Notes under the pieces: generated by a model | What the model was told of the DNA's origin: nothing | What the model saw: only the letters and a program-made list of their open reading frames with translations | Database searches by the model: none | Assembly: GCF_004210375.1 (NCBI RefSeq) | Contig: NC_134825.1 | Span: 1,302,001-1,366,000, forward strand | Source of the DNA: Tachypleus tridentatus | Taxonomy: Eukaryota; Arthropoda; Merostomata; Xiphosura; Limulidae | Length of the DNA stretch: 64,000 nt | Direction: 5' to 3' | In this document: piece after piece, positions 12,929 through 60,347 of the stretch | How positions within the stretch are numbered: position 1 is the stretch's first letter | How the letters are laid out: the number at the start of each line of letters is the position of its first letter | Program-made: the position numbers and the translations under genes

Positions 12929-13404
<476 letters not shown>

Positions 13405-20533: not shown

Positions 20534-20640
20534 GTACGTACTTAAGTTCTTTTCCTTGGATAATGAACAGAATAGTTACCCTATTTAAGAGTGTTTGTTT
20601 TTGTTTTCTTTTTATGCTTAAACCAACCTACAGACAGCAG

Positions 20641-23600
20641 TACGACTGAAGGTTTCAATATGCTTTACTGATAGTCCAAACAACACCAATTTACGCTATG
20701 ACTGAAGGTTTCAATATGCTGTACTGATAGTCCAAACAACACCAATTTACCCTATGACTGAAGGTTTCAGTATGCTGTACTGATAGTCCAAACAACACCA
20801 ATTTACTGTACGACTGAAGGTTTCAGTATGCTGTACTGATAGTCCAAACAACACCAATTTACTGAACGACTGAAGGTTTCAGTATGCTGTACTGATAGTC
20901 CAAACCACACCAATTTACTGCACGACTGACGGTTTCAGTATGCTGTACTGATAGTCCAAACAACACCAATTTACTGTACGACTGAAGGTTTCAGTATGCT
21001 GTACTGATAGTCCAAACAACACCAATTTACTGTACGACTGAAGGTTTCAGTATGCTGTACTGATAGTCCAAACAACACCAATTTACTGTACGACTGAAGG
21101 TTTCAGTATGCTGTACTGATAGTCCAAACAACACCAATTTACTGTACGACTGAAGGTTTCAGTATGCTGTACTGATAGTCCAAACAACACCAATTTACTG
21201 TACGACTGAAGGTTTCAGTATGCTGTACTGATAGTCCAAACAACACCAATTTACTGTACGACTGAAGGTTTCAGTATGCTGTACTGATAGTCCAAACAAC
21301 ACCAATTTACTGTACGACTGAAGGTTTCAGTATGCTGTACTGATAGTCCAAACAACACCAATTTACTGTACGACTGAAGGTTTCAGTATGCTGTACTGAT
21401 AGTCCAAACAACACCAATTTACTGTACGACTGAAGGTTTCAGTATGCTGTACTGATAGTCCAAACAACACCAATTTACTGTACGACTGAAGGTTTCAGTA
21501 TGCTGTACTGATAGTCCAAACAACACCAATTTACTGTACGACTGAAGGTTTCAGTATGCTGTACTGATAGTCCAAACAACACCAATTTACTGTACGACTG
21601 AAGGTTTCAGTATGCTGTACTGATAGTCCAAACAACACCAATTTACTGTACGACTGAAGGTTTCAGTATGCTGTACTGATAGTCCAAACAACACCAATTT
21701 ACTGTACGACTGAAGGTTTCAGTATGCTGTACTGATAGTCCAAACAACACCAATTTACTGTACGACTGAAGGTTTCAGTATGCTGTACTGATAGTCCAAA
21801 CAACACCAATTTACTGTACGACTGAAGGTTTCAGTATGCTGTACTGATAGTCCAAACAACACCAATTTACTGTACGACTGAAGGTTTCAGTATGCTGTAC
21901 TGATAGTCCAAACAACACCAATTTACTGTACGACTGAAGGTTTCAGTATGCTGTACTGATAGTCCAAACAACACCAATTTACTGTACGACTGAAGGTTTC
22001 AGTATGCTGTACTGATAGTCCAAACAACACCAATTTACTGTACGACTGAAGGTTTCAGTATGCTGTACTGATAGTCCAAACAACACCAATTTACTGTACG
22101 ACTGAAGGTTTCAGTATGCTGTACTGATAGTCAAACAAACAACACCAATTTACTGTACGACTGAAGGTTTCAGTATGCTGTACTGATAGTCCAAACAACA
22201 CCAATTTACTGTACGACTGAAGGTTTCAGTATGCTGTACTGATAGTCCAAACAACACCAATTTACTGTACGACTGAAGGTTTCAGTATGCTGTACTGATA
22301 GTCCAAACAACACCAATTTACTGTACGACTGAAGGTTTCAGTATGCTGTACTGATAGTCCAAACAACACCAATTTACTGTACGACTGAAGGTTTCAGTAT
22401 GCTGTACTGATAGTCCAAACAACACCAATTTACTGTACGACTGAAGGTTTCAGTATGCTGTACTGATAGTCCAAACAACACCAATTTACTGTACGACTGA
22501 AGGTTTCAGTATGCTGTACTGATAGTCCAAACAACACCAATTTACTGTACGACTGAACCAATTTTCAGTATGCTGTACTGATAGTCCAAACAACACCAAT
22601 TTACTGTACGACTGAAGGTTTCAGTATGCTGTACTGATAGTCCAAACAACACCAATTTACTGTACGACTGAAGGTTTCAGTATGCTGTACTGATAGTCCA
22701 AACAACACCAATTTACTGTACGACTGAAGGTTTCAGTATGCTGTACTGATAGTCCAAACAACACCAATTTACTGTACGACTGAAGGTTTCAGTATGCTGT
22801 ACTGATAGTCCAAACAACACCAATTTACTGTACGACTGAAGGTTTCAGTATGCTGTACTGATAGTCCAAACAACACCAATTTACTGTACGACTGAAGGTT
22901 TCAGTATGCTGTACTGATAGTCCAAACAACACCAATTTACTGTACGACTGAAGGTTTCAGTATGCTGTACTGATAGTCCAAACAACACCAATTTACTGTA
23001 CGACTGAAGGTTTCAGTATGCTGTACTGATAGTCCAAACAACACCAATTTACTGTACGACTGAAGGTTTCAGTATGCTGTACTGATAGTCCAAACAACAC
23101 CAATTTACTGTACGACTGAAGGTTTCAGTATGCTGTACTGATAGTCCAAACAACACCAATTTACTGTACGACTGAAGGTTTCAGTATGCTGTACTGATAG
23201 TCCAAACAACACCAATTTACTGTACGACTGAAGGTTTCAGTATGCTGTACTGATAGTCCAAACAACACCAATTTACTGTACGACTGAAGGTTTCAGTATG
23301 CTGTACTGATAGTCCAAACAACACCAATTTACTGTACGACTGAAGGTTTCAGTATGCTGTACTGATAGTCCAAACAACACCAATTTACTGTACGACTGAA
23401 GGTTTCAGTATGCTGTACTGATAGTCCAAACAACACCAATTTACTGTACGACTGAAGGTTTCAGTATGCTGTACTGATAGTCCAAACAACACCAATTTAC
23501 TGTACGACTGAAGGTTTCAGTATGCTGTACTGATAGTCCAAACAACACCAATTTACTGTACGACTGAAGGTTTCAGTATGCTGTACTGATAGTCCAAACA

Positions 23601-26600
23601 ACACCAATTTACTGTACGACTGAAGGTTTCAGTATGCTGTACTGATAGTCCAAACAACACCAATTTACTGTACGACTGAAGGTTTCAGTATGCTGTACTG
23701 ATAGTCCAAACAACACCAATTTACTGTACGACTGAAGGTTTCAGTATGCTGTACTGATAGTCCAAACAACACCAATTTACTGTACGACTGAAGGTTTCAG
23801 TATGCTGTACTGATAGTCCAAACAACACCAATTTACTGTACGACTGAAGGTTTCAGTATGCTGTACTGATAGTCCAAACAACACCAATTTACTGTACGAC
23901 TGAAGGTTTCAGTATGCTGTACTGATAGTCCAAACAACACCAATTTACTGTACGACTGAAGGTTTCAGTATGCTGTACTGATAGTCCAAACAACACCAAT
24001 TTACTGTACGACTGAAGGTTTCAGTATGCTGTACTGATAGTCCAAACAACACCAATTTACTGTACGACTGAAGGTTTCAGTATGCTGTACTGATAGTCCA
24101 AACAACACCAATTTACTGTACGACTGAAGGTTTCAGTATGCTGTACTGATAGTCCAAACAACACCAATTTACTGTACGACTGAAGGTTTCAGTATGCTGT
24201 ACTGATAGTCCAAACAACACCAATTTACTGTACGACTGAAGGTTTCAGTATGCTGTACTGATAGTCCAAACAACACCAATTTACTGTACGACTGAAGGTT
24301 TCAGTATGCTGTACTGATAGTCCAAACAACACCAATTTACTGTACGACTGAAGGTTTCAGTATGCTGTACTGATAGTCCAAACAACACCAATTTACTGTA
24401 CGACTGAAGGTTTCAGTATGCTGTACTGATAGTCCAAACAACACCAATTTACTGTACGACTGAAGGTTTCAGTATGCTGTACTGATAGTCCAAACAACAC
24501 CAATTTACTGTACGACTGAAGGTTTCAGTATGCTGTACTGATAGTCCAAACAACACCAATTTACTGTACGACTGAAGGTTTCAGTATGCTGTACTGATAG
24601 TCCAAACAACACCAATTTACTGTACGACTGAAGGTTTCAGTATGCTGTACTGATAGTCCAAACAACACCAATTTACTGTACGACTGAAGGTTTCAGTATG
24701 CTGTACTGATAGTCCAAACAACACCAATTTACTGTACGACTGAAGGTTTCAGTATGCTGTACTGATAGTCCAAACAACACCAATTTACTGTACGACTGAA
24801 GGTTTCAGTATGCTGTACTGATAGTCCAAACAACACCAATTTACTGTACGACTGAAGGTTTCAGTATGCTGTACTGATAGTCCAAACAACACCAATTTAC
24901 TGTACGACTGAAGGTTTCAGTATGCTGTACTGATAGTCCAAACAACACCAATTTACTGTACGACTGAAGGTTTCAGTATGCTGTACTGATAGTCCAAACA
25001 ACACCAATTTACTGTACGACTGAAGGTTTCAGTATGCTGTACTGATAGTCCAAACAACACCAATTTACTGTCCAAACAACACCAATTTACTACGACTGAA
25101 GGTTTCAGTATGCTGTACTGATAGTCCAAACAACACCAATTTACTGTACGACTGAAGGTTTCAGTATGCTGTACTGATAGTCCAAACAACACCAATTTAC
25201 TGTACGACTGAAGGTTTCAGTATGCTGTACTGATAGTCCAAACAACACCAATTTACTGTACGACTGAAGGTTTCAGTATGCTGTACTGATAGTCCAAACA
25301 ACACCAATTTACTGTACGACTGAAGGTTTCAGTATGCTGTACTGATAGTCCAAACAACACCAATTTACTGTACGACTGAAGGTTTCAGTATGCTGTACTG
25401 ATAGTCCAAACAACACCAATTTACTGTACGACTGAAGGTTTCAGTATGCTGTACTGATAGTCCAAACAACACCAATTTACTGTACGACTGAAGGTTTCAG
25501 TATGCTGTACTGATAGTCCAAACAACACCAATTTACTGTACGACTGAAGGTTTCAGTATGCTGTACTGATAGTCCAAACAACACCAATTTACTGTACGAC
25601 TGAAGGTTTCAGTATGCTGTACTGATAGTCCAAACAACACCAATTTACTGTACGACTGAAGGTTTCAGTATGCTGTACTGATAGTCCAAACAACACCAAT
25701 TTACTGTACGACTGAAGGTTTCAGTATGCTGTACTGATAGTCCAAACAACACCAATTTACTGTACGACTGAAGGTTTCAGTATGCTGTACTGATAGTCCA
25801 AACAACACCAATTTACTGTACGACTGAAGGTTTCAGTATGCTGTACTGATAGTCCAAACAACACCAATTTACTGTACGACTGAAGGTTTCAGTATGCTGT
25901 ACTGATAGTCCAAACAACACCAATTTACTGTACGACTGAAGGTTTCAGTATGCTGTACTGATAGTCCAAACAACACCAATTTACTGTACGACTGAAGGTT
26001 TCAGTATGCTGTACTGATAGTCCAAACAACACCAATTTACTGTACGACTGAAGGTTTCAGTATGCTGTACTGATAGTCCAAACAACACCAATTTACTGTA
26101 CGACTGAAGGTTTCAGTATGCTGTACTGATAGTCCAAACAACACCAATTTACTGTACGACTGAAGGTTTCAGTATGCTGTACTGATAGTCCAAACAACAC
26201 CAATTTACTGTACGACTGAAGGTTTCAGTATGCTGTACTGATAGTCCAAACAACACCAATTTACTGTACGACTGAAGGTTTCAGTATGCTGTACTGATAG
26301 TCCAAACAACACCAATTTACTGTACGACTGAAGGTTTCAGTATGCTGTACTGATAGTCCAAACACACACCAATTTACTGTACGACTGAAGGTTTCAGTAT
26401 GCTGTACTGATAGTCCAAACAACACCAATTTACTGTACGACTGAAGGTTTCAGTATGCTGTACTGATAGTCCAAACAACACCAATTTACTGTACGACTGA
26501 AGATAGTCCAAACAACACCAATTTTTACGACAGTATGCTGTACTGATAGTCCAAACAACACCAATTTACTGTACGACTGAAGGTTTCAGTATGCTGTACT

Positions 26601-29600
26601 GATAGTCCAAACAACACCAATTTACTGTACGACTGAAGGTTTCAGTATGCTGTACTGATAGTCCAAACAACACCAATTTACTGTACGACTGAAGGTTTCA
26701 GTATGCTGTACTGATAGTCCAAACAACACCAATTTACTGTACGACTGAAGGTTTCAGTATGCTGTACTGATAGTCCAAACAACACCAATTTACTGTACGA
26801 CTGAAGGTTTCAGTATGCTGTACTGATAGTCCAAACAACACCAATTTACTGTACGACTGAAGGAAGTATGCTTTGATAGTATGCTGTACTGATAGTGTAC
26901 CAAACAACACCAATTTACTGAACGACTGAAGGTTTCAGTATGCTGTACTGATAGTCCAAACAACACCAATTTACTGTACGACTGAAGGTTTCAGTATGCT
27001 GTACTGATAGTCCAAACAACACCAATTTACTGTACGACTGAAGGTTTCAGTATGCTGTACTGATAGTCCAAACAACACCAATTTACTGTACGACTGAAGG
27101 TTTCAGTATGCTGTACTGATAGTCCAAACAACACCAATTTACTGTACGACTGAAGGTTTCAGTATGCTGTACGACTGAAGGTTTCAGTATGCTGTACTGA
27201 TAGTCCAAACAACACCAATTTACTGTACGACTGAAGGTTTCAGTATGCTGTACTGATAGTCCAAACAACACCAATTTACTGTACGACTGAAGGTTTCAGT
27301 ATGCTGTACTGATAGTCCAAACAACACCAATTTACTGTACGACTGAAGGTTTCAGTATGCTGTACTGATAGTCCAAACAACACCAATTTACTGTACGACT
27401 GAAGGTTTCAGTATGCTGTACTGATAGTCCAAACAACACCAATTTACTGTACGACTGAAGGTTTCAGTATGCTGTACTGATAGTCCAAACAACACCAATT
27501 TACTGTACGACTGAAGGTTTCAGTATGCTGTACTGATAGTCCAAACAACACCAATTTACTGTACGACTGAAGGTTTCAGTATGCTGTACTGATAGTCCAA
27601 ACAACACCAATTTACTGTACGACTGAAGGTTTCAGTATGCTGTACTGATAGTCCAAACAACACCAATTTACTGTACGACTGAAGGTTTCAGTATGCTGTA
27701 CTGATAGTCCAAACAACACCAATTTACTGTACGACTGAAGGTTTCAGTATGCTGTACTGATAGTCCAAACAACACCAATTTACTGTACGACTGAAGGTTT
27801 CAGTATGCTGTACTGATAGACAAACAGCACCAATTTACTGTACGACTGAAGGTTTCAGTATGCTGTACTGATAGTCCAAACAACACCAATTTACTGTACG
27901 ACTGAAGGTTTCAGTATGCTGTACTGATAGTCCAAACAACACCAATTTACTGTACGACTGAAGGTTTCAGTATGCTGTACTGATAGTCCAAACAACACCA
28001 ATTTACTGTACGACTGAAGGTTTCAGTATGCTGTACTGATAGTCCAAACAACACCAATTTACTGTACGACTGAAGGTTTCAGTATGCTGTACTGATAGTC
28101 CAAACAACACCAATTTACTGTACGACTGAAGGTTTCAGTATGCTGTACTGATAGTCCAAACAACACCAATTTACTGTACGACTGAAGGTTTCAGTATGCT
28201 GTACTGATAGTCCAAACAACACCAATTTACTGTACGACTGAAGGTTTCAGTATGCTGTACTGATAGTCCAAACAACACCAATTTACTGTACGACTGAAGG
28301 TTTCAGTATGCTGTACTGATAGTCCAAACAACACCAATTTACTGTACGACTGAAGGTTTCAGTATGCTGTACTGATAGTCCAAACAACACCAATTTACTG
28401 TACGACTGAAGGTTTCAGTATGCTGTACTGATAGTCCAAACAACACCAATTTACTGTACGACTGAAGGTTTCAGTATGCTGTACTGATAGTCCAAACAAC
28501 ACCAATTTACTGTACGACTGAAGGTTTCAGTATGCTGTACTGATAGTCCAAACAACACCAATTTACTGTACGACTGAAGGTTTCAGTATGCTGTACTGAT
28601 AGTCCAAACAACACCAATTTACTGTACGACTGAAGGTTTCAGTATGCTGTACTGATAGTCCAAACAACACCAATTTACTGTACGACTGAAGGTTTCAGTA
28701 TGCTGTACTGATAGTCCAAACAACACCAATTTACTGTACGACTGAAGGTTTCAGTATGCTGTACTGATAGTCCAAACAACACCAATTTACTGTACGACTG
28801 AAGGTTTCAGTATGCTGTACTGATAGTCCAAACAACACCAATTTACTGTACGACTGAAGGTTTCAGTATGCTGTACTGATAGTCCAAACAACACCAATTT
28901 ACTGTACGACTGAAGGTTTCAGTATGCTGTACTGATAGTCCAAACAACACCAATTTACTGTACGACTGAAGGTTTCAGTATGCTGTACTGATAGTCCAAA
29001 CAACACCAATTTACTGTACGACTGAAGGTTTCAGTATGCTGTACTGATAGTCCAAACAACACCAATTTACTGTACGACTGAAGGTTTCAGTATGCTGTAC
29101 TGATAGTCCAAACAACACCAATTTACTGTACGACTGAAGGTTTCAGTATGCTGTACTGATAGTCCAAACAACACCAATTTACTGTACGACTGAAGGTTTC
29201 AGTATGCTGTACTGATAGTCCAAACAACACCAATTTACTGTACGACTGAAGGTTTCAGTATGCTGTACTGATAGTCCAAACAACACCAATTTACTGTACG
29301 ACTGAAGGTTTCAGTATGCTGTACTGATAGTCCAAACAACACCAATTTACTGTACGACTGAAGGTTTCAGTATGCTGTACTGATAGTCCAAACAACACCA
29401 ATTTACTGTACGACTGAAGGTTTCAGTATGCTGTACTGATAGTCCAAACAACACCAATTTACTGTACGACTGAAGGTTTCAGTATGCTGTACTGATAGTC
29501 CAAACAACACCAATTTACTGTACGACTGAAGGTTTCAGTATGCTGTACTGATAGTCCAAACAACACCAATTTACTGTACGACTGAAGGTTTCAGTATGCT

Positions 29601-32600
29601 GTACTGATAGTCCAAACAACACCAATTTACTGTACGACTGAAGGTTTCAGTATGCTGTACTGATAGTCCAAACAACACCAATTTACTGTACGACTGAAGG
29701 TTTCAGTATGCTGTACTGATAGTCCAAACAACACCAATTTACTGTACGACTGAAGGTTTCAGTATGCTGTACTGATAGTCCAAACAACACCAATTTACTG
29801 TACTGACTGAAGGTTTCAGTGTGCTGTACTGATAGTCCAAACAACACCAATTTACTGTACGACTGAAGGTTTCAGTATGCTGTACTGATAGACAAACAGC
29901 ACCAATTTACTGTACGACTGAAGGTTTCAGTATGCTGTACTGATAGTCCAAACAACACCAATTTACTGTACGACTGAAGGTTTCAGTATGCTGTACTGAT
30001 AGTCCAAACAACACCAATTTACTGTACGACTGAAGGTTTCAGTATGCTGTACTGATAGTCCAAACAACACCAATTTACTGTACGACTGAAGGTTTCAGTA
30101 TGCTGTACTGATAGTCCAAACAACACCAATTTACTGTACGACTGAAGGTTTCAGTATGCTGTACTGATAGTCCAAACAACACCAATTTACTGTACGACTG
30201 AAGGTTTCAGTATGCTGTACTGATAGTCCAAACAACACCAATTTACTGTACGACTGAAGGTTTCAGTATGCTGTACTGATAGTCCAAACAACACCAATTT
30301 ACTGTACGACTGAAGGTTTCAGTATGCTGTACTGATAGTCCAAACAACACCAATTTACTGTACGACTGAAGGTTTCAGTATGCTGTACTGATAGTCCAAA
30401 CAACACCAATTTACTGTACGACTGAAGGTTTCAGTATGCTGTACTGATAGTCCAAACAACACCAATTTACTGTACGACTGAAGGTTTCAGTATGCTGTAC
30501 TGATAGTCCAAACAACACCAATTTACTGTACGACTGAAGGTTTCAGTATGCTGTACTGATAGTCCAAACAACACCAATTTACTGTACGACTGAAGGTTTC
30601 AGTATGCTGTACTGATAGTCCAAACAACACCAATTTACTGTACGACTGAAGGTTTCAGTATGCTGTACTGATAGTCCAAACAACACCAATTTACTGTACG
30701 ACTGAAGGTTTCAGTATGCTGTACTGATAGTCCAAACAACACCAATTTACTGTACGACTGAAGGTTTCAGTATGCTGTACTGATAGTCCAAACAACACCA
30801 ATTTACTGTACGACTGAAGGTTTCAGTATGCTGTACTGATAGTCCAAACAACACCAATTTACTGTACGACTGAAGGTTTCAGTATGCTGTACTGATAGTC
30901 CAAACAACACCAATTTACTGTACGACTGAAGGTTTCAGTATGCTGTACTGATAGTCCAAACAACACCAATTTACTGTACGACTGAAGGTTTCAGTATGCT
31001 GTACTGATAGACAAACAGCACCAATTTACTGTACGACTGAAGGTTTCAGTATGCTGTACTGATAGTCCAAACAACACCAATTTACTGTACGACTGAAGGT
31101 TTCAGTATGCTGTACTGATAGTCCAAACAACACCAATTTACTGTACGACTGAAGGTTTCAGTATGCTGTACTGATAGTCCAAACAACACCAATTTACTGT
31201 ACGACTGAAGGTTTCAGTATGCTGTACTGATAGTCCAAACAACACCAATTTACTGTACGACTGAAGGTTTCAGTATGCTGTACTGATAGTCCAAACAACA
31301 CCAATTTACTGTACGACTGAAGGTTTCAGTATGCTGTACTGATAGTCCAAACAACACCAATTTACTGTACGACTGAAGGTTTCAGTATGCTGTACTGATA
31401 GTCCAAACAACACCAATTTACTGTACGACTGAAGGTTTCAGTATGCTGTACTGATAGTCCAAACAACACCAATTTACTGTACGACTGAAGGTTTCAGTAT
31501 GCTGTACTGATAGTCCAAACAACACCAATTTACTGTACGACTGAAGGTTTCAGTATGCTGTACTGATAGTCCAAACAACACCAATTTACTGTACGACTGA
31601 AGGTTTCAGTATGCTGTACTGATAGTCCAAACAACACCAATTTACTGTACGACTGAAGGTTTCAGTATGCTGTACTGATAGTCCAAACAACACCAATTTA
31701 CTGTACGACTGAAGGTTTCAGTATGCTGTACTGATAGTCCAAACAACACCAATTTACTGTACGACTGAAGGTTTCAGTATGCTGTACTGATAGTCCAAAC
31801 AACACCAATTTACTGTACGACTGAAGGTTTCAGTATGCTGTACTGATAGTCAAACAACACCAATTTACTGTACGACTGAAGGTTTCAGTAATTTATGCTG
31901 TACTGATAGTCCAAACAACACCAATTTACTGTACGACTGAAGGTTTCAGTATGCTGTACTGATAGTCCAAACAACACCAATTTACTGTACGACTGAAGGT
32001 TTCAGTATGCTGTACTGATAGTCCAAACAACACCAATTTACTGTACGACTGAAGGTTTCAGTATGCTGTACTGATAGTCCAAACAACACCAATTTACTGT
32101 ACGACTGAAGGTTTCAGTATGCTGTACTGATAGTCAAACAAACAACACCAATTTACTGTACGACTGAAGGTTTCAGTATGCTGTACTGATAGTCCAAACA
32201 ACACCAATTTACTGTACGACTGAAGGTTTCAGTATGCTGTACTGATAGTCCAAACAACACCAATTTACTGTACGACTGAAGGTTTCAGTATGCTGTACTG
32301 ATAGTCCAAACAACACCAATTTACTGTACGACTGAAGGTTTCAGTATGCTGTACTGATAGTCCAAACAACACCAATTTACTGTACGACTGAAGGTTTCAG
32401 TATGCTGTACTGATAGTCCAAACAACACCAATTTACTGTACGACTGAAGGTTTCAGTATGCTGTACTGATAGTCCAAACAACACCAATTTACTGTACGAC
32501 TGAAGGTTTCAGTATGCTGTACTGATAGTCCAAACAACACCAATTTACTGTACGACTGAAGGTTTCAGTATGCTGTACTGATAGTCCAAACAACACCAAT

Positions 32601-35600
32601 TTACTGTACGACTGAAGGTTTCAGTATGCTGTACTGATAGTCCAAACAACACCAATTTACTGTACGACTGAAGGTTTCAGTATGCTGTACTGATAGTCCA
32701 AACAACACCAATTTACTGTACGACTGAAGGTTTCAGTATGCTGTACTGATAGTCCAAACAACACCAATTTACTGTACGACTGAAGGTTTCAGTATGCTGT
32801 ACTGATAGTCCAAACAACACCAATTTACTGTACGACTGAAGGTTTCAGTATGCTGTACTGATAGTCAAACAACACCAATTTACTGTACGACTGAAGGTTT
32901 CAGTATGCTGTACTGATAGTCCAAACAACACAACTTTACTGTACGACTGAAGGTTTCAGTATGCTGTACTGATAGTCCAAACAACACCAATTTACTGTAC
33001 GACTGAAGGTTTCAGTATGCTGTACTGATAGTCCAAACAACACCAATTTACTGTACGACTGAAGGTTTCAGTATGCTGTACTGATAGTCCAAACAACACC
33101 AATTTACTGTACGACTGAAGGTTTCAGTATGCTGTACTGATAGTCCAAACAACACCAATTTACTGTACGACTGAAGGTTTCAGTATGCTGTACTGATAGT
33201 CCAAACAACACCAATTTACTGTACGACTGAAGGTTTCAGTATGCTGTACTGATAGTCCAAACAACACCAATTTACTGTACGACTGAAGGTTTCAGTATGC
33301 TGTACTGATACAAACAACACCAATTTACTGTACGACTGAAGGTTTCAGTATGCTGTACTGATAGTCCAAACAACACCAATTTACTGTACGACTGAAGGTT
33401 TCAGTATGCTGTACTGATAGTCAGTATGCAAACAACACCAATTTACTGTACTGACTGAAGGTTTCAGTGTGCTGTACTGATAGTCCAAACAACACCAATT
33501 TACTGTACGACTGAAGGTTTCAGTATGCTGTACTGATAGTCCAAACAACACCAATTTACTGTACGACTGAAGGTTTCAGTATGCTGTACTGATAGTCCAA
33601 ACAACACCAATTTACTGTACGACTGAAGGTTTCAGTATGCTGTACTGATAGTCCAAACAACACCAATTTACTGTACGACTGAAGGTTTCAGTATGCTGTA
33701 CTGATAGTCCAAACAACACCAATTTACTGTACGACTGAAGGTTTCAGTATGCTGTACTGATAGTCCAAACAACACCAATTTACTGTACGACTGAAGGTTT
33801 CAGTATGCTGTACTGATAGTCCAAACAACACCAATTTACTGTACGACTGAAGGTTTCAGTATGCTGTACTGATAGTCCAAACAACACCAATTTACTGTAC
33901 GACTGAAGGTTTCAGTATGCTGTACTGATAGTCCAAACAACACCAATTTACTGTACGACTGAAGGTTTCAGTATGCTGTACTGATAGTACCAAACAACAC
34001 CAATTTACTGTACGACTGAAGGTTTCAGTATGCTGTACTGATAGTCCAAACAACACCAATTTACTGTACGACTGAAGGTTTCAGTATGCTGTACTGATAG
34101 TCCAAACAACACCAATTTACTGTACGACTGAAGGTTTCAGTATGCTGTACTGATAGTCCAAACAACACCAATTTACTGTACGACTGAAGGTTTCAGTATG
34201 CTGTACTGATAGTCCAAACAACACCAATTTACTGTACGACTGAAGGTTTCAGTATGCTGTACTGATAGTCCAAACAACACCAATTTACTGTACGACTGAA
34301 GGTTTCAGTATGCTGTACTGATAGTCCAAACAACACCAATTTACTGTACGACTGAAGGTTTCAGTATGCTGTACTGATAGTCCAAACAACACCAATTTAC
34401 TGTACGACTGAAGGTTTCAGTATGCTGTACTGATAGTCCAAACAACACCAATTTACTGTACGACTGAAGGTTTCAGTATGCTGTACTGATAGTCCAAACA
34501 ACACCAATTTACTGTACGACTGAAGGTTTCAGTATGCTGTACTGATAGTCGACAAACAACACCAATTTACTGTACGACTGAAGGTTTCAGTATGCTGTAC
34601 TGATAGTCCAAACAACACCAATTTACTGTACGACTGAAGGTTTCAGTATGCTGTACTGATAGTCCAAACAACACCAATTTACTGTACGACTGAAGGTTTC
34701 AGTATGCTGTACTGATAGTCCAAACAACACCAATTTACTGTACGACTGAAGGTTTCAGTATGCTGTACTGATAGTCCAAACAACACCAATTTACTGTACG
34801 ACTGAAGGTTTCAGTATGCTGTACTGATAGTCCAAACAACACCAATTTACTGTACGACTGAAGGTTTCAGTATGCTGTACTGATAGTCCAAACAACACCA
34901 ATTTACTGTACGACTGAAGGTTTCAGTATGCTGTACTGATAGTCAAACAAACAACACTGAAGGTTTCAATTTACTGTCCAAACAACACCAATTTACGACT
35001 GAAGGTTTCAGTATGCTGTACTGATAGTCCAAACAACACCAATTTACTGTACGACTGAAGGTTTCAGTATGCTGTACTGATAGTCCAAACAACACCAATT
35101 TACTGTACGACTGAAGGTTTCAGTATGCTGTACTGATAGTCCAAACAACACCAATTTACTGTACGACTGAAGGTTTCAGTATGCTGTACTGATAGTCCAA
35201 ACAACACCAATTTACTGTACGACTGAAGGTTTCAGTATGCTGTACTGATAGTCCAAACAACACCAATTTACTGTACGACTGAAGGTTTCAGTATGCTGTA
35301 CTGATAGTCCAAACAACACCAATTTACTGTACGACTGAAGGTTTCAGTATGCTGTACTGATAGTCCAAACAACACCAATTTACTGTACGACTGAAGGTTT
35401 CAGTATGCTGTACTGATAGTCAGTATGCAAACAACACCAATTTACTGTACGACTGAAGGTTTCAGTATGCTGTACTGATAGTCCAAACAACACCAATTTA
35501 CTGTACGACTGAAGGTTTCAGTATGCTGTACTGATAGTCCAAACAACACCAATTTACTGTACGACTGAAGGTTTCAGTATGCTGTACTGATAGTCCAAAC

Positions 35601-47600: not shown

Positions 47601-50600
47601 GAAGGTTTCAGTATGCTGTACTGATAGTCCAAACAACACCAATTTACTGTACGACTGAAGGTTTCAGTATGCTGTACTGATAGTCCAAACAACACCAATT
47701 TACTGTACGACTGAAGGTTTCAGTATGCTGTACTGATAGTCCAAACAACACCAATTTACTGTACGACTGAAGGTTTCAGTATGCTGTACTGATAGTCCAA
47801 ACAACACCAATTTACTGTACGACTGAAGGTTTCAGTATGCTGTACTGATAGTCCAAACAACACCAATTTACTGTACGACTGAAGGTTTCAGTATGCTGTA
47901 CTGATAGTCCAAACAACACCAATTTACTGTACGACTGAAGGTTTCAGTATGCTGTACTGATAGTCCAAACAACACCAATTTACTGTACGACTGAAGGTTT
48001 CAGTATGCTGTACTGATAGTCCAAACAACACCAATTTACTGTACGACTGAAGGTTTCAGTATGCTGTACTGATAGTCCAAACAACACCAATTTACTGTAC
48101 GACTGAAGGTTTCAGTATGCTGTACTGATAGTCCAAACAACACCAATTTACTGTACGACTGAAGGTTTCAGTATGCTGTACTGATAGTCCAAACAACACC
48201 AATTTACTGTACGACTGAAGGTTTCAGTATGCTGTACTGATAGTCCAAACAACACCAATTTACTGTACGACTGAAGGTTTCAGTATGCTGTACTGATAGT
48301 CCAAACAACACCAATTTACTGTACGACTGAAGGTTTCAGTATGCTGTACTGATAGTCCAAACAACACCAATTTACTGTACGACTGAAGGTTTCAGTATGC
48401 TGTACTGATAGTCCAAACAACACCAATTTACTGTACGACTGAAGGTTTCAGTATGCTGTACTGATAGTCCAAACAACACCAATTTACTGTACGACTGAAG
48501 GTTTCAGTATGCTGTACTGATAGTCCAAACCACACCAATTTACTGCACGACTGAAGGTTTCAGTACTGTACTGATAGTCCAAACAACACCAATTTACTGT
48601 ACGACTGAAGGTTTCAGTATGCTGTACTGATAGTCCAAACAACACCAATTTACTGTACGACTGAAGGTTTCAGTATGCTGTACTGATAGTCCAAACAACA
48701 CCAATTTACTGTACGACTGAAGGTTTCAGTATGCTGTACTGATAGTCCAAACAACACCAATTTACTGTACGACTGAAGGTTTCAGTATGCTGTACTGATA
48801 GTCCAAACAACACCAATTTACTGTACGACTGAAGGTTTCAGTATGCTGTACTGATAGTCCAAACAACACCAATTTACTGTACGACTGAAGGTTTCAGTAT
48901 GCTGTACTGATAGTCCAAACAACACCAATTTACTGTACGACTGAAGGTTTCAGTATGCTGTACTGATAGTCCAAACAACACCAATTTACTGTACGACTGA
49001 AGGTTTCAGTATGCTGTACTGATAGTCCAAACAACACCAATTTACTGTACGACTGAAGGTTTCAGTATGCTGTACTGATAGTCCAAACGACACCAATTTA
49101 CTGTACGACTGAAGAAGGTTTCAGTATGCTGTACTGATAGTCCAAACAACACCAATTTACTGTACGACTGAAGGTTTCAGTATGCTGTACTGATAGTCCA
49201 AACAACACCAATTTACTGTACGACTGAAGGTTTCAGTATGCTGTACTGATAGTCCAAACAACACCAATTTACTGTACGACTGAAGGTTTCAGTATGCTGT
49301 ACTGATAGTCCAAACAACACCAATTTACTGTACGACTGAAGGTTTCAGTATGCTGTACTGATAGTCCAAACAACACCAATTTACTGTACGACTGAAGGTT
49401 TCAGTATGCTGTACTGATAGTCCAAACAACACCAATTTACTGTACGACTGAAGGTTTCAGTATGCTGTACTGATAGTCCAAACAACACCAATTTACTGTA
49501 CGACTGAAGGTTTCAGTATGCTGTACTGATAGTCCAAACAACACCAATTTACTGTACGACTGAAGGTTTCAGTATGCTGTACTGATAGTCCAAACAACAC
49601 CAATTTACTGTACGACTGAAGGTTTCAGTATGCTGTACTGATAGTCCAAACAACACCAATTTACTGTACGACTGAAGGTTTCAGTATGCTGTACTGATAG
49701 TCCAAACAACACCAATTTACTGTACGACTGAAGGTTTCAGTATGCTGTACTGATAGTCCAAACAACACCAATTTACTGTACGACTGAAGGTTTCAGTATG
49801 CTGTACTGATAGTCCAAACAACACCAATTTACTGTACGACTGAAGGTTTCAGTATGCTGTACTGATAGTCCAAACAACACCAATTTACTGTACGACTGAA
49901 GGTTTCAGTATGCTGTACTGATAGTCCAAACAACACCAATTTACTGTACGACTGAAGGTTTCAGTATGCTGTACTGATAGTCCAAACAACACCAATTTAC
50001 TGTACGACTGAAGGTTTCAGTATGCTGTACTGATAGTCCAAACAACACCAATTTACTGTACGACTGAAGGTTTCAGTATGCTGTACTGATAGTCCAAACA
50101 ACACCAATTTACTGTACGACTGAAGGTTTCAGTATGCTGTACTGATAGTCCAAACAACACCAATTTACTGTACGACTGAAGGTTTCAGTATGCTGTACTG
50201 ATAGTCAAACAAACAACACCAATTTACTGTACGACTGAAGGTTTCAGTATGCTGTACTGATAGTCCAAACAACACCAATTTACTGTACGACTGAAGGTTT
50301 CAGTATGCTGTACTGATAGTCCAAACAACACCAATTTACTGTACGACTGAAGGTTTCAGTATGCTGTACTGATAGTCCAAACAACACCAATTTACTGTAC
50401 GACTGAAGGTTTCAGTATGCTGTACTGATAGTCCAAACAACACCAATTTACTGTACGACTGAAGGTTTCAGTATGCTGTACTGATAGTCCAAACAACACC
50501 AATTTACTGTACGACTGAAGGTTTCAGTATGCTGTACTGATAGTCCAAACAACACCAATTTACTGTACGACTGAAGGTTTCAGTATGCTGTACTGATAGT

Positions 50601-53600
50601 CCAAACAACACCAATTTACTGTACGACTGAAGGTTTCAGTATGCTGTACTGATAGTCCAAACAACACCAATTTACTGTACGACTGAAGGTTTCAGTATGC
50701 TGTACTGATAGTCCAAACAACACCAATTTACTGTACGACTGAAGGTTTCAGTATGCTGTACTGATAGTCCAAACTGTACTGATACAAACCAATTTACTGT
50801 ACGACTGAAGGTTTCAGTATGCTGTACTGATAGTCCAAACAACACCAATTTACTGTACGACTGAAGGTTTCAGTATGCTGTACTGATAGTCCAAACAACA
50901 CCAATTTACTGTACGACTGAAGGTTTCAGTATGCTGTACTGATAGTCCAAACAACACCAATTTACTGTACGACTGAAGGTTTCAGTATGCTGTACTGATA
51001 GTCCAAACAACACCAATTTACTGTACGACTGAAGGTTTCAGTATGCTGTACTGATAGTCCAAACAACACCAATTTACTGTACGACTGAAGGTTTCAGTAT
51101 GCTGTACTGATAGTCCAAACAACACCAATTTACTGTACGACTGAAGGTTTCAGTATGCTGTACTGATAGTCCAAACAACACCAATTTACTGTACGACTGA
51201 AGGTTTCAGTATGCTGTACTGATAGTCCAAACAACACCAATTTACTGTACGACTGAAGGTTTCAGTATGCTGTACTGATAGTCCAAACAACACCAATTTA
51301 CTGTACGACTGAAGGTTTCAGTATGCTGTACTGATAGTCCAAACAACACCAATTTACTGTACGACTGAAGGTTTCAGTATGCTGTACTGATAGTCCAAAC
51401 AACACCAATTTACTGTACGACTGAAGGTTTCAGTATGCTGTACTGATAGTCCAAACAACACCAATTTACTGTACGACTGAAGGTTTCAGTATGCTGTACT
51501 GATAGTCCAAACAACACCAATTTACTGTACGACTGAAGGTTTCAGTATGCTGTACTGATAGTCCAAACAACACCAATTTACTGTACGACTGAAGGTTTCA
51601 GTATGCTGTACTGATAGTCCAAACAACACCAATTTACTGTACGACTGAAGGTTTCAGTATGCTGTACTGATAGTCCAAACAACACCAATTTACTGTACGA
51701 CTGAAGGTTTCAGTATGCTGTACTGATAGTCCAAACAACACCAATTTACTGTACGACTGAAGGTTTCAGTATGCTGTACTGATAGTCCAAACAACACCAA
51801 TTTACTGTACGACTGAAGGTTTCAGTATGCTGTACTGATAGTCCAAACAACACCAATTTACTGTACGACTGAAGGTTTCAGTATGCTGTACTGATAGTCC
51901 AAACAACACCAATTTACTGTACGACTGAAGGTTTCAGTATGCTGTACTGATAGTCCAAACAACACCAATTTACTGTACGACTGAAGGTTTCAGTATGCTG
52001 TACTGATAGTCCAAACAACACCAATTTACTGTACGACTGAAGGTTTCAGTATGCTGTACTGATAGTCCAAACAACACCAATTTACTGTACGACTGAAGGT
52101 TTCAGTATGCTGTACTGATAGTCCAAACAACACCAATTTACTGTACGACTGAAGGTTTCAGTATGCTGTACTGATAGTCAGTATGCAAACAAAACACCAA
52201 TTTACTGTACGACTAAAGGTTTCAGTATGCTGTACTGATAGTCCAAACAACACCAATTTACTGTACGACTGAAGGTTTCAGTATGCTGTACTGATAGTCC
52301 AAACAACACCAATTTACTGTACGACTGAAGGTTTCAGTATGCTGTACTGATAGTCCAAACAACACCAATTTACTGTACGACTGAAGGTTTCAGTATGCTG
52401 TACTGATAGTCCAAACAACACCAATTTACTGTACGACTGAAGGTTTCAGTATGCTGTACTGATAGTCCAAACAACACCAATTTACTGTACGACTGAAGGT
52501 TTCAGTATGCTGTACTGATAGTCCAAACAACACCAATTTACTGTACGACTGAAGGTTTCAGTATGCTGTACTGATAGTCCAAACAACACCAATTTACTGT
52601 ACGACTGAAGGTTTCAGTATGCTGTACTGATAGTCCAAACAACACCAATTTACTGTACGACTGAAGGTTTCAGTATGCTGTACTGATAGTCCAAACAACA
52701 CCAATTTACTGTACGACTGAAGGTTTCAGTATGCTGTACTGATAGTCCAAACAACACCAATTTACTGTACGACTGAAGGTTTCAGTATGCTGTACTGATA
52801 GTCCAAACAACACCAATTTACTGTACGACTGAAGGTTTCAGTATGCTGTACTGATAGTCCAAACAACACCAATTTACTGTACGACTGAAGGTTTCAGTAT
52901 GCTGTACTGATAGTCCAAACAACACCAATTTACTGTACGACTGAAGGTTTCAGTATGCTGTACTGATAGTCCAAACAACACCAATTTACTGTACGACTGA
53001 AGGTTTCAGTATGCTGTACTGATAGTCCAAACAACACCAATTTACTGTACGACTGAAGGTTTCAGTATGCTGTACTGATAGTCCAAACAACACCAATTTA
53101 CTGTACGACTGAAGGTTTCAGTATGCTGTACTGATAGTCCAAACAACACCAATTTACTGTACGACTGAAGGTTTCAGTATGCTGTACTGATAGTCCAAAC
53201 AACACCAATTTACTGTACGACTGAAGGTTTCAGTATGCTGTACTGATAGTCCAAACAACACCAATTTACTGTACGACTGAAGGTTTCAGTATGCTGTACT
53301 GATAGTCCAAACAACACCAATTTACTGTACGACTGAAGGTTTCAGTATGCTGTACTGATAGTCCAAACAACACCAATTTACTGTACGACTGAAGGTTTCA
53401 GTATGCTGTACTGATAGTCCAAACAACACCAATTTACTGTACGACTGAAGGTTTCAGTATGCTGTACTGATAGTCCAAACAACACCAATTTACTGTACGA
53501 CTGAAGGTTTCAGTATGCTGTACTGATAGTCCAAACAACACCAATTTCAGACTGAATGCTGTACTGATAGTCCAAACAACACCAATTTACTGTACGACTG

Positions 53601-56600
53601 AAGGTTTCAGTATGCTGTACTGATAGTCCAAACAACACCAATTTACTGTACGACTGAAGGTTTCAGTATGCTGTACTGATAGTCCAAACAACACCAATTT
53701 ACTGTACGACTGAAGGTTTCAGTATGCTGTACTGATAGTCCAAACAACACCAATTTACTGTACGACTGAAGGTTTCAGTATGCTGTACTGATAGTCCAAA
53801 CAACACCAATTTACTGTACGACTGAAGGTTTCAGTATGCTGTACTGATAGTCCAAACAACACCAATTTACTGTACGACTGAAGGTTTCAGTATGCTGTAC
53901 TGATAGTCCAAACAACACCAATTTACTGTACGACTGAAGGTTTCAGTATGCTGTACTGATAGTCCAAACAACACCAATTTACTGTACGACTGAAGGTTTC
54001 AGTATGCTGTACTGATAGTCCAAACAACACCAATTTACTGTACGACTGAAGGTTTCAGTATGCTGTACTGATAGTCCAAACAACACCAATTTACTGTACG
54101 ACTGAAGGTTTCAGTATGCTGTACTGATAGTCCAAACAACACCAATTTACTGTACGACTGAAGGTTTCAGTATGCTGTACTGATAGTCCAAACAACACCA
54201 ATTTACTGTACGACTGAAGGTTTCAGTATGCTGTACTGATAGTCCAAACAACACCAATTTACTGTACGACTGAAGGTTTCAGTATGCTGTACTGATAGTC
54301 CAAACAACACCAATTTACTGTACGACTGAAGGTTTCAGTATGCTGTACTGATAGTCCAAACAACACCAATTTACTGTACGACTGAAGGTTTCAGTATGCT
54401 GTACTGATAGTCCAAACAACACCAATTTACTGTACGACTGAAGGTTTCAGTATGCTGTACTGATAGTCCAAACAACACCAATTTACTGTACGACTGAAGG
54501 TTTCAGTATGCTGTACTGATAGTCCAAACAACACCAATTTACTGTACGACTGAAGGTTTCAGTATGCTGTACTGATAGTCCAAACAACACCAATTTACTG
54601 TACGACTGAAGGTTTCAGTATGCTGTACTGATAGTCCAAACAACACCAATTTACTGTACGACTGAAGGTTTCAGTATGCTGTACTGATAGTCCAAACAAC
54701 ACCAATTTACTGTACGACTGAAGGTTTCAGTATGCTGTACTGATAGTCCAAACAACACCAATTTACTGTACGACTGAAGGTTTCAGTATGCTGTACTGAT
54801 AGTCCAAACAACACCAATTTACTGTACGACTGAAGGTTTCAGTATGCTGTACTGATAGTCCAAACAACACCAATTTACTGTACGACTGAAGGTTTCAGTA
54901 TGCTGTACTGATAGTCCAAACAACACCAATTTACTGTACGACTGAAGGTTTCAGTATGCTGTACTGATAGTCCAAACAACACCAATTTACTGTACGACTG
55001 AAGGTTTCAGTATGCTGTACTGATAGTCCAAACAACACCAATTTACTGTACGACTGAAGGTTTCAGTATGCTGTACTGATAGTCCAAACAACACCAATTT
55101 ACTGTACGACTGAAGGTTTCAGTATGCTGTACTGATAGTCCAAACAACACCAATTTACTGTACGACTGAAGGTTTCAGTATGCTGTACTGATAGTCCAAA
55201 CAACACCAATTTACTGTACGACTGAAGGTTTCAGTATGCTGTACTGATAGTCCAAACAACACCAATTTACTGTACGACTGAAGGTTTCAGTATGCTGTAC
55301 TGATAGTCCAAACAACACCAATTTACTGTACGACTGAAGGTTTCAGTATGCTGTACTGATAGTCCAAACAACACCAATTTACTGTACGACTGAAGGTTTC
55401 AGTATGCTGTACTGATAGTCCAAACAACACCAATTTACTGTACGACTGAAGGTTTCAGTATGCTGTACTGATAGTCCAAACAACACCAATTTACTGTACG
55501 ACTGAAGGTTTCAGTATGCTGTACTGATAGTCCAAACAACACCAATTTACTGTACGACTGAAGGTTTCAGTATGCTGTACTGATAGTCCAAACAACACCA
55601 ATTTACTGTACGACTGAAGGTTTCAGTATGCTGTACTGATAGTCCAAACAACACCAATTTACTGTACGACTGAAGGTTTCAGATGCTGTACTGATAGTCC
55701 AAACAACACCAATTTACTGTACGACTGAAGGTTTCAGTATGCTGTACTGATAGTCCAAACAACACCAATTTACTGTACGACTGAAGGTTTCAGTATGCTG
55801 TACTGATAGTCCAAACAACACCAATTTACTGTACGACTGAAGGTTTCAGTATGCTGTACTGATAGTCCAAACAACACCAATTTACTGTACGACTGAAGGT
55901 TTCAGTATGCTGTACTGATAGTCCAAACAACACCAATTTACTGTACGACTGAAGGTTTCAGTATGCTGTACTGATAGTCCAAACAACACCAATTTACTGT
56001 ACGACTGAAGGTTTCAGTATGCTGTACTGATAGTCCAAACAACACCAATTTACTGTACGACTGAAGGTTTCAGTATGCTGTACTGATAGTCCAAACAACA
56101 CCAATTTACTGTACGACTGAAGGTTTCAGTATGCTGTACTGATAGTCCAAACAACACCAATTTACTGTACGACTGAAGGTTTCAGTATGCTGTACTGATA
56201 GTCCAAACAACACCAATTTACTGTACGACTGAAGGTTTCAGTATGCTGTACTAGTCCAAACAACACCAATTTACTGTACGACTGAAGGTTTCAGTATAGT
56301 CCAAACAACACCAATTTACTGTACGACTGAAGGTTTCAGTATGCTGTACTGATAGTCCAAACAACACCAATTTACTGTACGACTGAAGGTTTCAGTATGC
56401 TGTACTGATAGTCCAAACAACACCAATTTACTGTACGACTGAAGGTTTCAGTATGCTGTACTGATAGTCCAAACAACACCAATTTACTGTACGACTGAAG
56501 GTTTCAGTATGCTGTACTGATAGTCCAAACAACACCAATTTACTGTACGACTGAAGGTTTCAGTATGCTGTACTGATAGTCAGTATGCAAACGACACCAA

Positions 56601-58728
56601 TTTACTGTACGACTGAAGGTTTCAGTATGCTGTACTGATAGTCCAAACAACACCAATTTACTGTACGACTGAAGGTTTCAGTATGCTGTACTGATAGTCC
56701 AAACAACACCAATTTACTGTACGACTGAAGGTTTCAGTATGCTGTACTGATAGTCCAAACAACACCAATTTACTGTACGACTGAAGGTTTCAGTATGCTG
56801 TACTGATAGTCCAAACAACACCAATTTACTGTACGACTGAAGGTTTCAGTATGCTGTACTGATAGTCCAAACAACACCAATTTACTGTACGACTGAAGGT
56901 TTCAGTATGCTGTACTGATAGTCCAAACAACACCAATTTACTGTACGACTGAAGGTTTCAGTATGCTGTACTGATAGTCCAAACAACACCAATTTACTGT
57001 ACGACTGAAGGTTTCAGTATGCTGTACTGATAGTCCAAACAACACCAATTTACTGTACGACTGAAGGTTTCAGTATGCTGTACTGATAGTCCAAACAACA
57101 CCAATTTACTGTACGACTGAAGGTTTCAGTATGCTGTACTGATAGTCCAAACAACACCAATTTACTATACGACTGAAGGTTTCAGTATGCTGTACTGATA
57201 GTCCAAACGACACCAATTTTCTGTACGACTGAAGATTTCAGTATGCTGTACTGATAGTCCAAACAACACCAATTTACTGTACGACTGAAGGTTTCAGTAT
57301 GCTGTACTGATAGTCCAAACGACACCAATTTACTGTACGACTGAAGATTTCAGTATGCTGTACTGATAGTCCAAACAACACCAATTTACTGTACGACTGA
57401 AGGTTTCAGTATGCTGTACTGATAGTCCAAACAGCACCAATTTACTGAACGACTGAAGGTTTCAGTATGCTGTACTGATAGTCCAAACCACACCAATTTA
57501 CTGTACGACTGACGGTTTCAGTATGCTGTACTGATAGTCCAAACAACACCAATTTACTGTACGACTGAAGGTTTAAGTATGCTGTACTGATAGTCCAAAC
57601 AGCACCAATTTACTCTACGACTGAAGGTTTCAGTATGCTGTACTGATAGTCCAAACAACACCAATTTACTGTACGACTGAAGGTTTCAGTATGCTGTACT
57701 GATAGTCCAAACAACACCAATTTACCCTATGACTGAAGGTTTCAGTGTGCTGTACTGATAGTCCAAACAACACCAATTTACTGTACGACTGAAGGTTTCA
57801 GTATGCTGTACTGATAGTCCAAACAACACCAATTTACTGTACGACTGAAGGTTTCAGTATGCTGTACTGATAGTCCAAACGACACCAATTTACTGTACGA
57901 CTGAAGATTTCAGTATGCTGTACTGATAGTCCAAACAACACCAATTTACTGTACGACTGAAGGTTTCAGTATGCTGTACTGATAGTCCAAACGACACCAA
58001 TTTACTGTACGACTGAAGATTTCAGTATGCTGTACTGATAGTCCAAACAACACCAATTTACTGTACGACTGAAGGTTTCAGTATGCTGTACTGATAGTCC
58101 AAACAGCACCAATTTACTGAACGACTGAAGGTTTCAGTATGCTGTACTGATAGTCCAAACCACACCAATTTACTGTACGACTGACGGTTTCAGTGTGCTG
58201 TACTGATAGTCCAAACAGCACCAATTTACTGTACGACTGAAGGTTTCAGTGTGCTGTACTGATAGTCCAAACAACACCAATTTACTGTACGACTGAAGGT
58301 TTCAGTATGCTGTACTCATAGTCCAAACAACACCAATTTACTGAACGACTGAAGGTTTCAGTATGCTGTACTGATAGTCCAAACAACACCAATTTACTGT
58401 ACGACTGAAGGTTTCAGTGTGCTGTACTGATAGTCCAAACAACACCAATTTTCTGAACGACTGACGGTTTCAGTGTGCTGTACTGATAGTCCAAACAACA
58501 CCAATTTACTGTACGACTGAAGGTTTAAGTATGCTATACTCATAGTCCAAACAACACCAATTTACTGAACGACTGAAGGTTTCAGTATGCTGTACTGATA
58601 GTCCAAACAACACCAATTTACTGTACGACTGAAGGTTTCAGTATGCTGTACTGATAGTCCAAACAACACCAATTTACTGTACGACTGAAGGTTTCAGTGT
58701 GCTGTACTGATAGTCCAAACAACACCAA
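20641..58728. repeat. 38-kb intronic satellite, 56-bp unit, about 680 copies
   Basis: One uninterrupted head-to-tail array. The reference unit can be read at 21541-21596: ACTGAAGGTTTCAGTATGCT, GTACTGATAGTCCAAACAAC, ACCAATTTACTGTACG. Most of the interior is identical from copy to copy for thousands of bases (for example 35440-40010 and 41440-45460). The outermost ~300 bp on the left and ~1.6 kb on the right are diverged. Each unit has two overlapping inverted repeats (ACTGAA-GGT-TTCAGT and TCAGTA-TGCTG-TACTGA) and two GTAC sites 31 bp apart. There are about forty units of abnormal length, many altered just after GATAG. The short minus-strand open frames inside (24953-25195, 27083-27274, 47498-47698) arise only where a unit is shortened or rearranged and are not genes. 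Exact copy number depends on the assembly. Confidence 0.97.
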
Positions 58729-58739
58729 AGACCAAGACA

Positions 58740-59285
58740 CTATACAAGGTAGAGTCACCATTACTAGATCAAGAAGGCAAGGGCAGAGAGCTCAATGTAA
58801 GGCATCATTGCTGTAGAAAGAAGACAAAGGCGGAGAGCTCAATGTAAGGCATCATTGCTGTAGAAAGAAGACAAAGGCGGAGAGCTCAATGTAAGGCATC
58901 ATTACTGTAGAAAGAAGACAAAGGCGGAGAGCTCAGTGTAAGGCATCATTACTGTAGAAAAAAGACAAAGGCGGAGAGCTCAATGTAAGGCATCATTACT
59001 GTAAAAAGAAGACAAAGGCGGAGAGCTCAATGTAAGGCATCATTACTGTAGAAAGAAGACAAAGGCAGAGAGCTCAATGTAAGGCATCATTACTGTAAAA
59101 AGAAGACAATGGCGGAGAGCTCAATGTAAGGCATCATTACTGTAGAAAGAAGACAAAGGCAGAGTGTCCAAAATAAGATCCTAATAACTTTATCAAGAAG
59201 ACAAGGGCAAAGTGGCTGAAGTAAGGTCAACTTTTTTATAATAAGACGACAAAGAGAAAGAAGCCGAAGTAAAGTTATAATTATA
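58740..59285. repeat. 47-bp minisatellite (about 9 clear copies)
   Basis: Units of 47 bp containing GAAAGAAGACAAAGGCGGAG, AGCTCAATGTAAGGCATCAT and TACTGTA. Seven or eight copies are near-identical between about 58780 and 59165; degenerate copies extend to about 59285. It begins almost directly where the 56-bp satellite ends. Purine-rich on the + strand. Confidence 0.92.
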
Positions 59286-59449
59286 ATTTATAGAAGAAAC
59301 CTTTATTAAGGGTTTTCAGTGGAAATGGTAGATTACTGTTCTGTGTGTTCATTATTAACCTGTCTTTCGTAAGTAACATCTAGTAAAGGTAATATATACT
59401 GATAAGGAGTGCCTTCATGTTAACATACCAGTTCATGTCACCACATTCA

Positions 59450-59695
59450 GTCATACTCTGCAGTATGAGAGTGGCGAGTTTTAGCTCCAGTCCTACCAAA
59501 TATGCTCACACTTCCAGCTGTGAGACGATATATTGTGACAGTCGTTTCTACTAGTCGTTGGTGAAAGAGTAACCTACGAGTTGGCTGTGGATTGTGGGAT
59601 GACTACCTGCCTTCCTTCTAATCTTACACTACTAAATGAGGGACGACTTGCGCAGATTGCCTTATTGTAGCTTTGCGCGCAATTAAATAAAACCA
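59450..59695 (+). mobile_element. Diverged SINE copy (second family)
   Basis: About 245 bp showing in order: a degraded tRNA-like head (about 59470-59494), ACCAAATATGCTCAC, GTCGTTGGTGAAAGAGTAAC, GATGACTACCTGCCTTCCTT, CTAATCTTACACTACTAAAT, and the end GTAGCTTTGCGCGCAATTAA with an A-rich tail. This order of blocks matches a very abundant tRNA-derived SINE that I recall from horseshoe crab genomic sequence. Roughly a fifth of positions appear changed, so the copy is old. It lies in sense orientation in the last intron. Confidence 0.7.
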
Positions 59696-60347
59696 GTCAT
59701 ACTCTATCTAATGATTATTTATCGTAACAACAGGTCTGCAGCGTAGCTTTCACCACATGAGACTTTCTTGTGAAGCTGTCAGATTCAGAGTACATCACTT
59801 CCTTCTGCTTACATTTAGCTTACGAGGACTGCACCTTCCAGCGTCTGTTTATGAAACCCAAACACACAGAAATCGACGAGTGAGAATCGCGTTCAGTCAC
59901 TCTGCTCCAATCTCTTTTGACTGCTTTCTCCTAATGACGTCATACTCTATTACACTTTGATTACCAACGACTATTCGGTCTAGATTCTGAATGGCCCTTA
60001 TATCCCAAGATGATTCTCATTTATTTCTATTTGAATGTCATAAAGCACACAGGATATTCACTTTTTGAAATTCTAAATCCCCTGTATGATCAAATATTTA
60101 TTATCTTAGTGTATGAATAGTTTGTTGCTTAATGGTCTTCCAAAACTGGCAAAACTACCAAAGACGAGCAATGTTAAAATGTAGTTTAAAATTTTCCTTT
60201 TCACCACGACTTAATACTGACTGTAATTGTTATTTAAGATGATTATTTGCATATTTCAGATCGTATTAATATAATGTACATTGTTTTTTATTTATATTCC
60301 ATTTAACATGATATTTTTGGGAATATTTTTATTTATATCTAAAATAG
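59696..60347. other. 3' end of the 39.8-kb intron
   Basis: Unique AT-rich sequence ending in the acceptor AAAATAG at 60341-60347. A 67-codon open frame at 59757-59960 covers the edge of the SINE and has no recognisable motif; it is not called as a gene. Confidence 0.6.

Follow-up and report, generated by a model that had tools for sequence, protein, structure and literature searches.

The closest described relatives of the locus we investigated are a human intronic VNTR and the giant introns of the Drosophila Y chromosome. The human CACNA1C TRACT is reported as an array of 30-bp units spanning 3 to more than 30 kb, whose long forms are enriched in perfect tracts; growth via these unstable perfect tracts is argued for, and an association of the long alleles with lower expression in fibroblasts and testis is described (PMC13131567). 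The Y-linked kl-3 and kl-5 are reported to carry introns with megabases of simple satellites and to depend on a special germline programme (PMC6508621, PMC11207136), and satellite-bearing giant introns in fly spermatocytes are described as needing special factors (PMC6508621). The array presented here is an extreme new example of an intronic VNTR, a known kind of element. Like the TRACT, it is an intronic minisatellite of a signalling gene that comes in a short and a long form; unlike the TRACT as reported, it has a 56-bp unit, its forms measure ~0.9 and ~38 kb, it resides in an invertebrate, and it is known from sequence alone (PMC13131567). With kl-3 and kl-5 it shares the long satellite-filled intron in a conserved gene (PMC6508621, PMC11207136), but this intron, read here at the level of DNA, is milder than the Drosophila Y giant introns: a single private repeat fills 38 kb within a gene region that measures ~0.3 Mb. 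The titles and abstract openings of the best-ranked related open-access literature do not name the locus.

Seven exons on the + strand of the window, by which we mean the whole stretch of 64,000 nucleotides that was analysed, make up the 3' part of a soluble-guanylyl-cyclase-like gene (Table 1). The joined protein matches the HNOBA domain (E 2e-29) and, over residues 92-271, the Pfam domain Guanylate_cyc (E 7.8e-70); its best solved relative is sGC beta-1. Exons F and G join in frame across the last coding intron, and the junction falls after residue 260, inside the Guanylate_cyc match and at a place across which the sGC beta-1 chain can be aligned. The original prediction that the exons starting at 20444 and 60348 are joined within the end of the cyclase domain is thus borne out, with GT-AG borders and phase 0. 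Two HNOB exons lie upstream of the window at C1:1,076,772 and C1:1,094,401 (C1 is the scaffold carrying the window, on which exon A starts at 1,302,431), on the same strand as the window exons, and among the matches listed they are the sole such pair on this scaffold. We infer that they belong to the window gene, which would then combine HNOB, HNOBA and Guanylate_cyc, as a soluble guanylyl cyclase does, and would span ~286 kb if the scaffold is right. The distance from the second HNOB match to exon A is 207.7 kb in the window copy and 4.4-18.4 kb in four paralogs. The gene is a candidate member of the atypical oxygen-sensing subtype (Gyc88E-like).

Table 1. Exons, introns and tandem arrays in the window (positions counted from its first letter)
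Feature	Position	Strand	Remarks
Exon A	430..559	+	end of HNOBA domain
Exon B	1208..1354	+	linker to catalytic domain
Exon C	1623..1769	+	catalytic domain start
Exon D	5783..5938	+	frameshifted (1 base short in assembly), intact in near copy
60-bp array	8246..12643	+	intron D-E
Exon E	12954..13063	+	
60-bp array	14734..18373	+	intron E-F
28/56-bp array	19668..20385	+	directly upstream of exon F
Exon F	20444..20533	+	30 codons; 90/90 bases identical to near copy
Intron F-G	20534..60347	+	GT-AG, phase 0, 39,814 bp; 2,521 bp in near copy
56-bp minisatellite array	20640..58734	+	681 whole units; TRF and wrap-around alignment
Left edge of 56-bp array	20640..20975	+	substitution-bearing units; 6/10 variants common to right edge
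Uniform interior of 56-bp array	22096..57166	+	580/627 units perfect
Right edge of 56-bp array	57167..58734	+	substitution-rich, partly duplicated block; variants common to 16-unit copy
47-bp minisatellite	58771..59164	+	intron F-G; near copy 94 bp (2 units) shorter
Exon G	60348..60944	+	198 codons and stop; 597/597 bases identical to near copy
34-43-bp arrays	61112..62007	+	downstream of stop codon

The 56-bp array occupies 38,095 bp, or 95.7%, of intron F-G, and the ~38 kb, ~680 copies and 96% originally claimed for it agree with these values. Its GC content is 39%, and 603 of the 683 segments cut by wrap-around alignment are perfect, with longest uninterrupted perfect runs of 81 and 71 units. 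As assembled, the array is ~38 kb long and near-perfect; its true length and homogeneity may differ. The units at the edges differ from those in the interior in the kind of change they carry (680 of the 681 units were classed, the last, partly degenerate one being left out). Substitutions are found in 30 of 53 edge units and indels in none, whereas 42 of the 47 imperfect interior units have indels (42/47 versus 0/30 among imperfect units, Fisher P 1.5e-16). Variants of the left edge recur in the right edge (six of ten, P 3e-5), and a linked pair of variants stands at equal spacing in both ends. This suggests one array that has grown from inside, and it makes a chance joining of two separate loci less likely. 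Remnants of edge variants also persist in the interior, where 5 of 13 variants recur in the right edge (P 0.0024), and several interior indel variants repeat with identical letters at three to five places.

The repeat is private to intron F-G and its copy in the assembled, unmasked sequence. A 37-base core of the unit, allowing up to three mismatches, has 662 matches in the 2.17-Gb assembly, all in a single orientation, and the reversed control of this core has no match there. Counted locally, the window holds 647 of them and the short copy described below 15, which together make up all 662. A 20-base core was absent from all 55 loci sampled for it. The exact 37-mer has no match in viral contigs, nor a 29-mer in bacterial and archaeal genome contigs, results that have little bearing on animals. 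The array thus does not behave like a centromeric or subtelomeric satellite, the classes that the original prediction names as usual for this size: such satellites occupy many sites or megabase blocks, and here all 662 matches in assembled, unmasked sequence fall in two introns, although masked or unassembled stretches may hold further copies. What we find is a minisatellite, head-to-tail units within the size range of ~10-100 bp at one locus, and a VNTR, as copy number differs between versions of that locus (681 versus ~16 units in copies that are ~99% identical).

The second version is another set of exons A-G at C1:~574-598 kb, on the same strand and ~728 kb upstream as measured between the two exons F, whose intron F-G (within C1:593901-598900) holds ~16 units in 2,521 bp between the same two exons. 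The original prediction that every functional transcript must cross the array therefore holds for the window copy and fails for this near-identical one, with its 2.5-kb intron. Over seven stretches outside the array the copies differ by 37 substitutions in 3901 noncoding bases (0.95%) and by none in 930 coding bases, where 8.8 were expected (P 1.5e-4), which points to constraint on the encoded protein. Intron F-G differs in length by 37,199 bp, and seven other intervals, most of them array-bearing, by a net 41-355 bp. Of the variants in the short array (15 of its 16 units used, the last left out), 8/12 are common to the right edge of the window array (P 2e-7); in the order of their units, however, the short array and this edge show no significant homology (293 of 2000 shuffles reach the score). 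Since the near copy has the same two exons around the same repeat, and since the edges of the window array share variants, it is unlikely that the flanks represent a chimeric join of unrelated loci.

The resemblance of the two regions extends further out. Each of five 80-base probes from around the short copy has a match in the surroundings of the window copy: one probe lies in unique sequence, three fall in arrays also present there, and one (at 551 kb) in the 52-bp array. From the end of the 52-bp array to a matching 86-bp array the distance is ~33.8 kb in the window copy and at most 15 kb in the short copy, so that the short copy would hold at least ~18 kb less of the 30-kb array of 63-bp units that lies between them, upstream of the window.

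A third, partial copy has exons A-D at C14:9.90 Mb (C14:9900565-9905817, - strand; protein identity 88-98%); its exons E-G were not among the 92 matches scored. The region of its exon D is 99% identical over 699 bases, and exon D itself, at the level of the protein match, runs in one frame over residues 141-195 with a score like that of the short copy. More distantly, the gene belongs to a set of at least five paralogs that share the same split HNOB domain; the other four are on C3, C8, C10 and C13, in keeping with the whole-genome duplications that horseshoe crabs are reported to have undergone (PMC7815833). The distance from exon E to exon G is 2.9 kb on C3, 5.75 kb on C10, 10.4 kb in the short copy and 47.3 kb in the window; C3 and C10 are the two paralogs in which the last exon was found, and exon F was found in none of the paralogs.

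The short and the long intron, in genes that are otherwise ~99% identical, could be alleles segregating in one animal, although we consider this somewhat doubtful, or else recently duplicated loci. For a mangrove horseshoe crab assembly a heterozygosity of 0.8% is reported (together with a mean intron of 4.3 kb; PMC7210998), which makes the 0.95% difference between the copies one of allelic size. Two versions of a region that differ by ~1% within one assembly are also what is described for heterotype false duplications (PMC8081667); unlike those, the present case includes a third partial copy on another scaffold, and the presence of exons A-D in three copies, more than two alleles would allow, strains a simple two-allele picture. 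If the copies were alleles, the intron of this conserved signalling gene would be polymorphic by a factor of ~43 in copy number, and expression from each allele could be compared within the animal to see whether a satellite intron of 38 kb reduces it, delays it or changes its splicing.

We consider it probable that the array is a locus-private intronic VNTR in which an array of ~16 units recently grew to ~680 in one copy, and the large array indeed looks like a recent, copy-specific expansion. The direction of change, presumed to be from short to long, would agree with the shorter distances from exon E to exon G that bound the intron in two paralogs. An alternative explanation is that the assembly itself produced the array, noisy long reads without a unique placement having been stretched and smoothed from a short or medium true array into a near-perfect one of 38 kb. 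The interior deviates from the unit mainly by indels and the edges by substitutions alone, as this explanation would have it, and the window copy contains further changes that point to its consensus. All five one-base indels relative to the short copy are homopolymer contractions in the window copy, and one of them is the frameshift in exon D; the exon-D region has 695 bases in the window and 699 in both the short copy and the copy on C14. Homopolymer contractions are the usual signature of long-read consensus error, so that the frameshift, which would truncate the protein of the window copy within the catalytic domain, is probably not real. The indel lesions within the array may likewise be such errors, and its length and uniformity may in part be products of assembly. 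Nevertheless, indel variants that are repeated identically at several places are also what real variant units would give, remnants of the edge variants survive in the interior, and two arrays of 28-30 kb upstream were assembled with many repeated substitution variants. We therefore regard an artefact on this scale as rather unlikely. As a caution, apparent breaks in array-rich genes, such as the frameshift in exon D, can be consensus errors.

The same frameshift, present in the window copy and not in the short one, could be read as a mark of decay, in which case the window copy would be a duplicate whose intron was free to expand after function was lost. The additional exons A-G at C1:574-597 kb and A-D at C14:9.90 Mb would fit this; however, the absence of coding substitutions against 0.95% noncoding ones, the confinement of all five homopolymer contractions to the window copy, and the position of the only listed HNOB pair of the scaffold upstream of the window copy speak against this reading, and we judge decay to be about as improbable as an assembly artefact. 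A function of the array, its length timing or tuning cyclase expression or its RNA having a nuclear role, with the short and long forms as regulatory alleles, seems to us very unlikely. The precedents for it are the long TRACT alleles (PMC13131567) and the giant introns of flies (PMC6508621), as far as these reports describe them, but the repeat, confined to this intron and scarcely represented in the sister copy, shows no sign of selection; the RNA of two units folds just mildly better than shuffles, and the window has no Rfam match. Least credible, to the point of being largely refuted for the assembled sequence, is the invasion of the intron by a chromosomal satellite family, either centromeric or subtelomeric. 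The locus does lie in a zone near a scaffold start that is perhaps richer in arrays; nevertheless, the two intron copies account for every genome match, and the 20-base core occurs in none of the 55 loci sampled.

If a recent expansion of the short array is the correct reading, a short, variant-rich array would have gained a tract of perfect units, and this tract, being unstable, would have grown by repeated unequal exchange or replication slippage, older mutated units persisting mainly at the edges of the array. Mutation and not selection would account for the array. It would be transcribed as part of the intron and removed via the ordinary GT-AG sites. Constraint on the protein, as judged from the coding and noncoding substitutions, suggests that the array is probably tolerated and spliced out. 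Its likeliest effect would be neutral to mildly costly, in that the long copy would take more time to transcribe and might yield less; the long TRACT alleles and the giant introns of flies serve as precedents that make a reduced or slower output of that copy plausible. The altered splicing, heterochromatin block and nuclear repeat RNA raised in the original prediction are hypothetical. The two copies can be compared cleanly, one intron occurring with ~16 and with ~680 units beside no substitution in the 930 coding bases compared, with which the long-standing question of whether huge intronic arrays affect expression becomes directly testable.

Signals within the unit were also considered. With a splice matrix built from the other sites of the gene, the acceptor and donor of the intron itself are equalled or exceeded in score by 675 AGs and 668 GTs of the array; with all seven acceptors and a bar of 6 bits, none of 2046 array AGs passes, the 5-7 training sites being too few for either matrix. 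To the eye, the 34-43-bp units that follow the stop codon look like 3' splice sites, and four of their 32 AGs score at least 6 with this small matrix. Neither AATAAA nor ATTAAA occurs in the 56-bp unit on either strand. RNA of two units folds mildly better than shuffles (z -2.16; 5/200 shuffles as good) and DNA of the units does not (z -0.55); with a folding signal this weak, a hairpin or structural role for the unit was rejected. Rfam and tRNA scans of the window gave no match. For a comparison with Helentron-carried satellite arrays, which lie inside a mobile element with conserved ends, the array flanks were searched stretch by stretch; within single stretches they show only short inverted pairs of 12-14 bases.

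The scaffold of the locus is 187 Mb long, and its start is 1.3 Mb away. No run of telomere repeats is present in the first 10 kb of this scaffold, and subterminal is used here to mean near a scaffold end only. Among 45 sampled places in the genome, 11 consist of more than 50% tandem repeat, with units that look different by eye, which suggests that large minisatellite arrays are common in this genome. They are perhaps more frequent near scaffold ends (10 of 21 places within 5 Mb of an end versus 1 of 24 interior ones, one of which contained 500 N; P 0.022), an enrichment that weakens to P 0.16 without the eight places on the scaffold of the window (13 places left). Human long-unit minisatellites are reported to concentrate within 5 Mb of chromosome ends, many of them in genes (PMC7608644), a pattern for which our sample is suggestive only; the enriched human ones are described as GC-rich (>60%; PMC7608644), unlike the window array with its 39% GC.

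That the genome is one of a horseshoe crab is supported by coagulin. Coagulin (coagulogen) genes mark horseshoe crabs, and all 19 listed matches to PF02035 are over the cut-off (best E 1.5e-25), four of them adjacent and exon-like on C11; none of 14 control genomes has a match.

Further repeats were seen around the window. A 52-bp array of more than 28 kb lies upstream at C1:1232001-1260271 (seen also in probes at 1212 and 1222 kb), and, ~90 kb farther upstream, three probes at C1:1102-1122 kb contain its unit as well. The 63-bp array of ~30 kb follows at C1:1261695-1291462, where TRF also scores a period of 189 (three units). If the gene model is right, both arrays, and the upstream recurrence of the 52-bp unit, sit between the HNOB exons and exon A. 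Between the two arrays, at C1:~1261.2-1261.6 kb, pieces of open reading frame look by eye like a Tc1-type transposase. Stretches of 1.2-2 kb that are 96-97% identical occur in both orientations in C1:1-10000 and C1:1376001-1386000 and are probably a mobile element.
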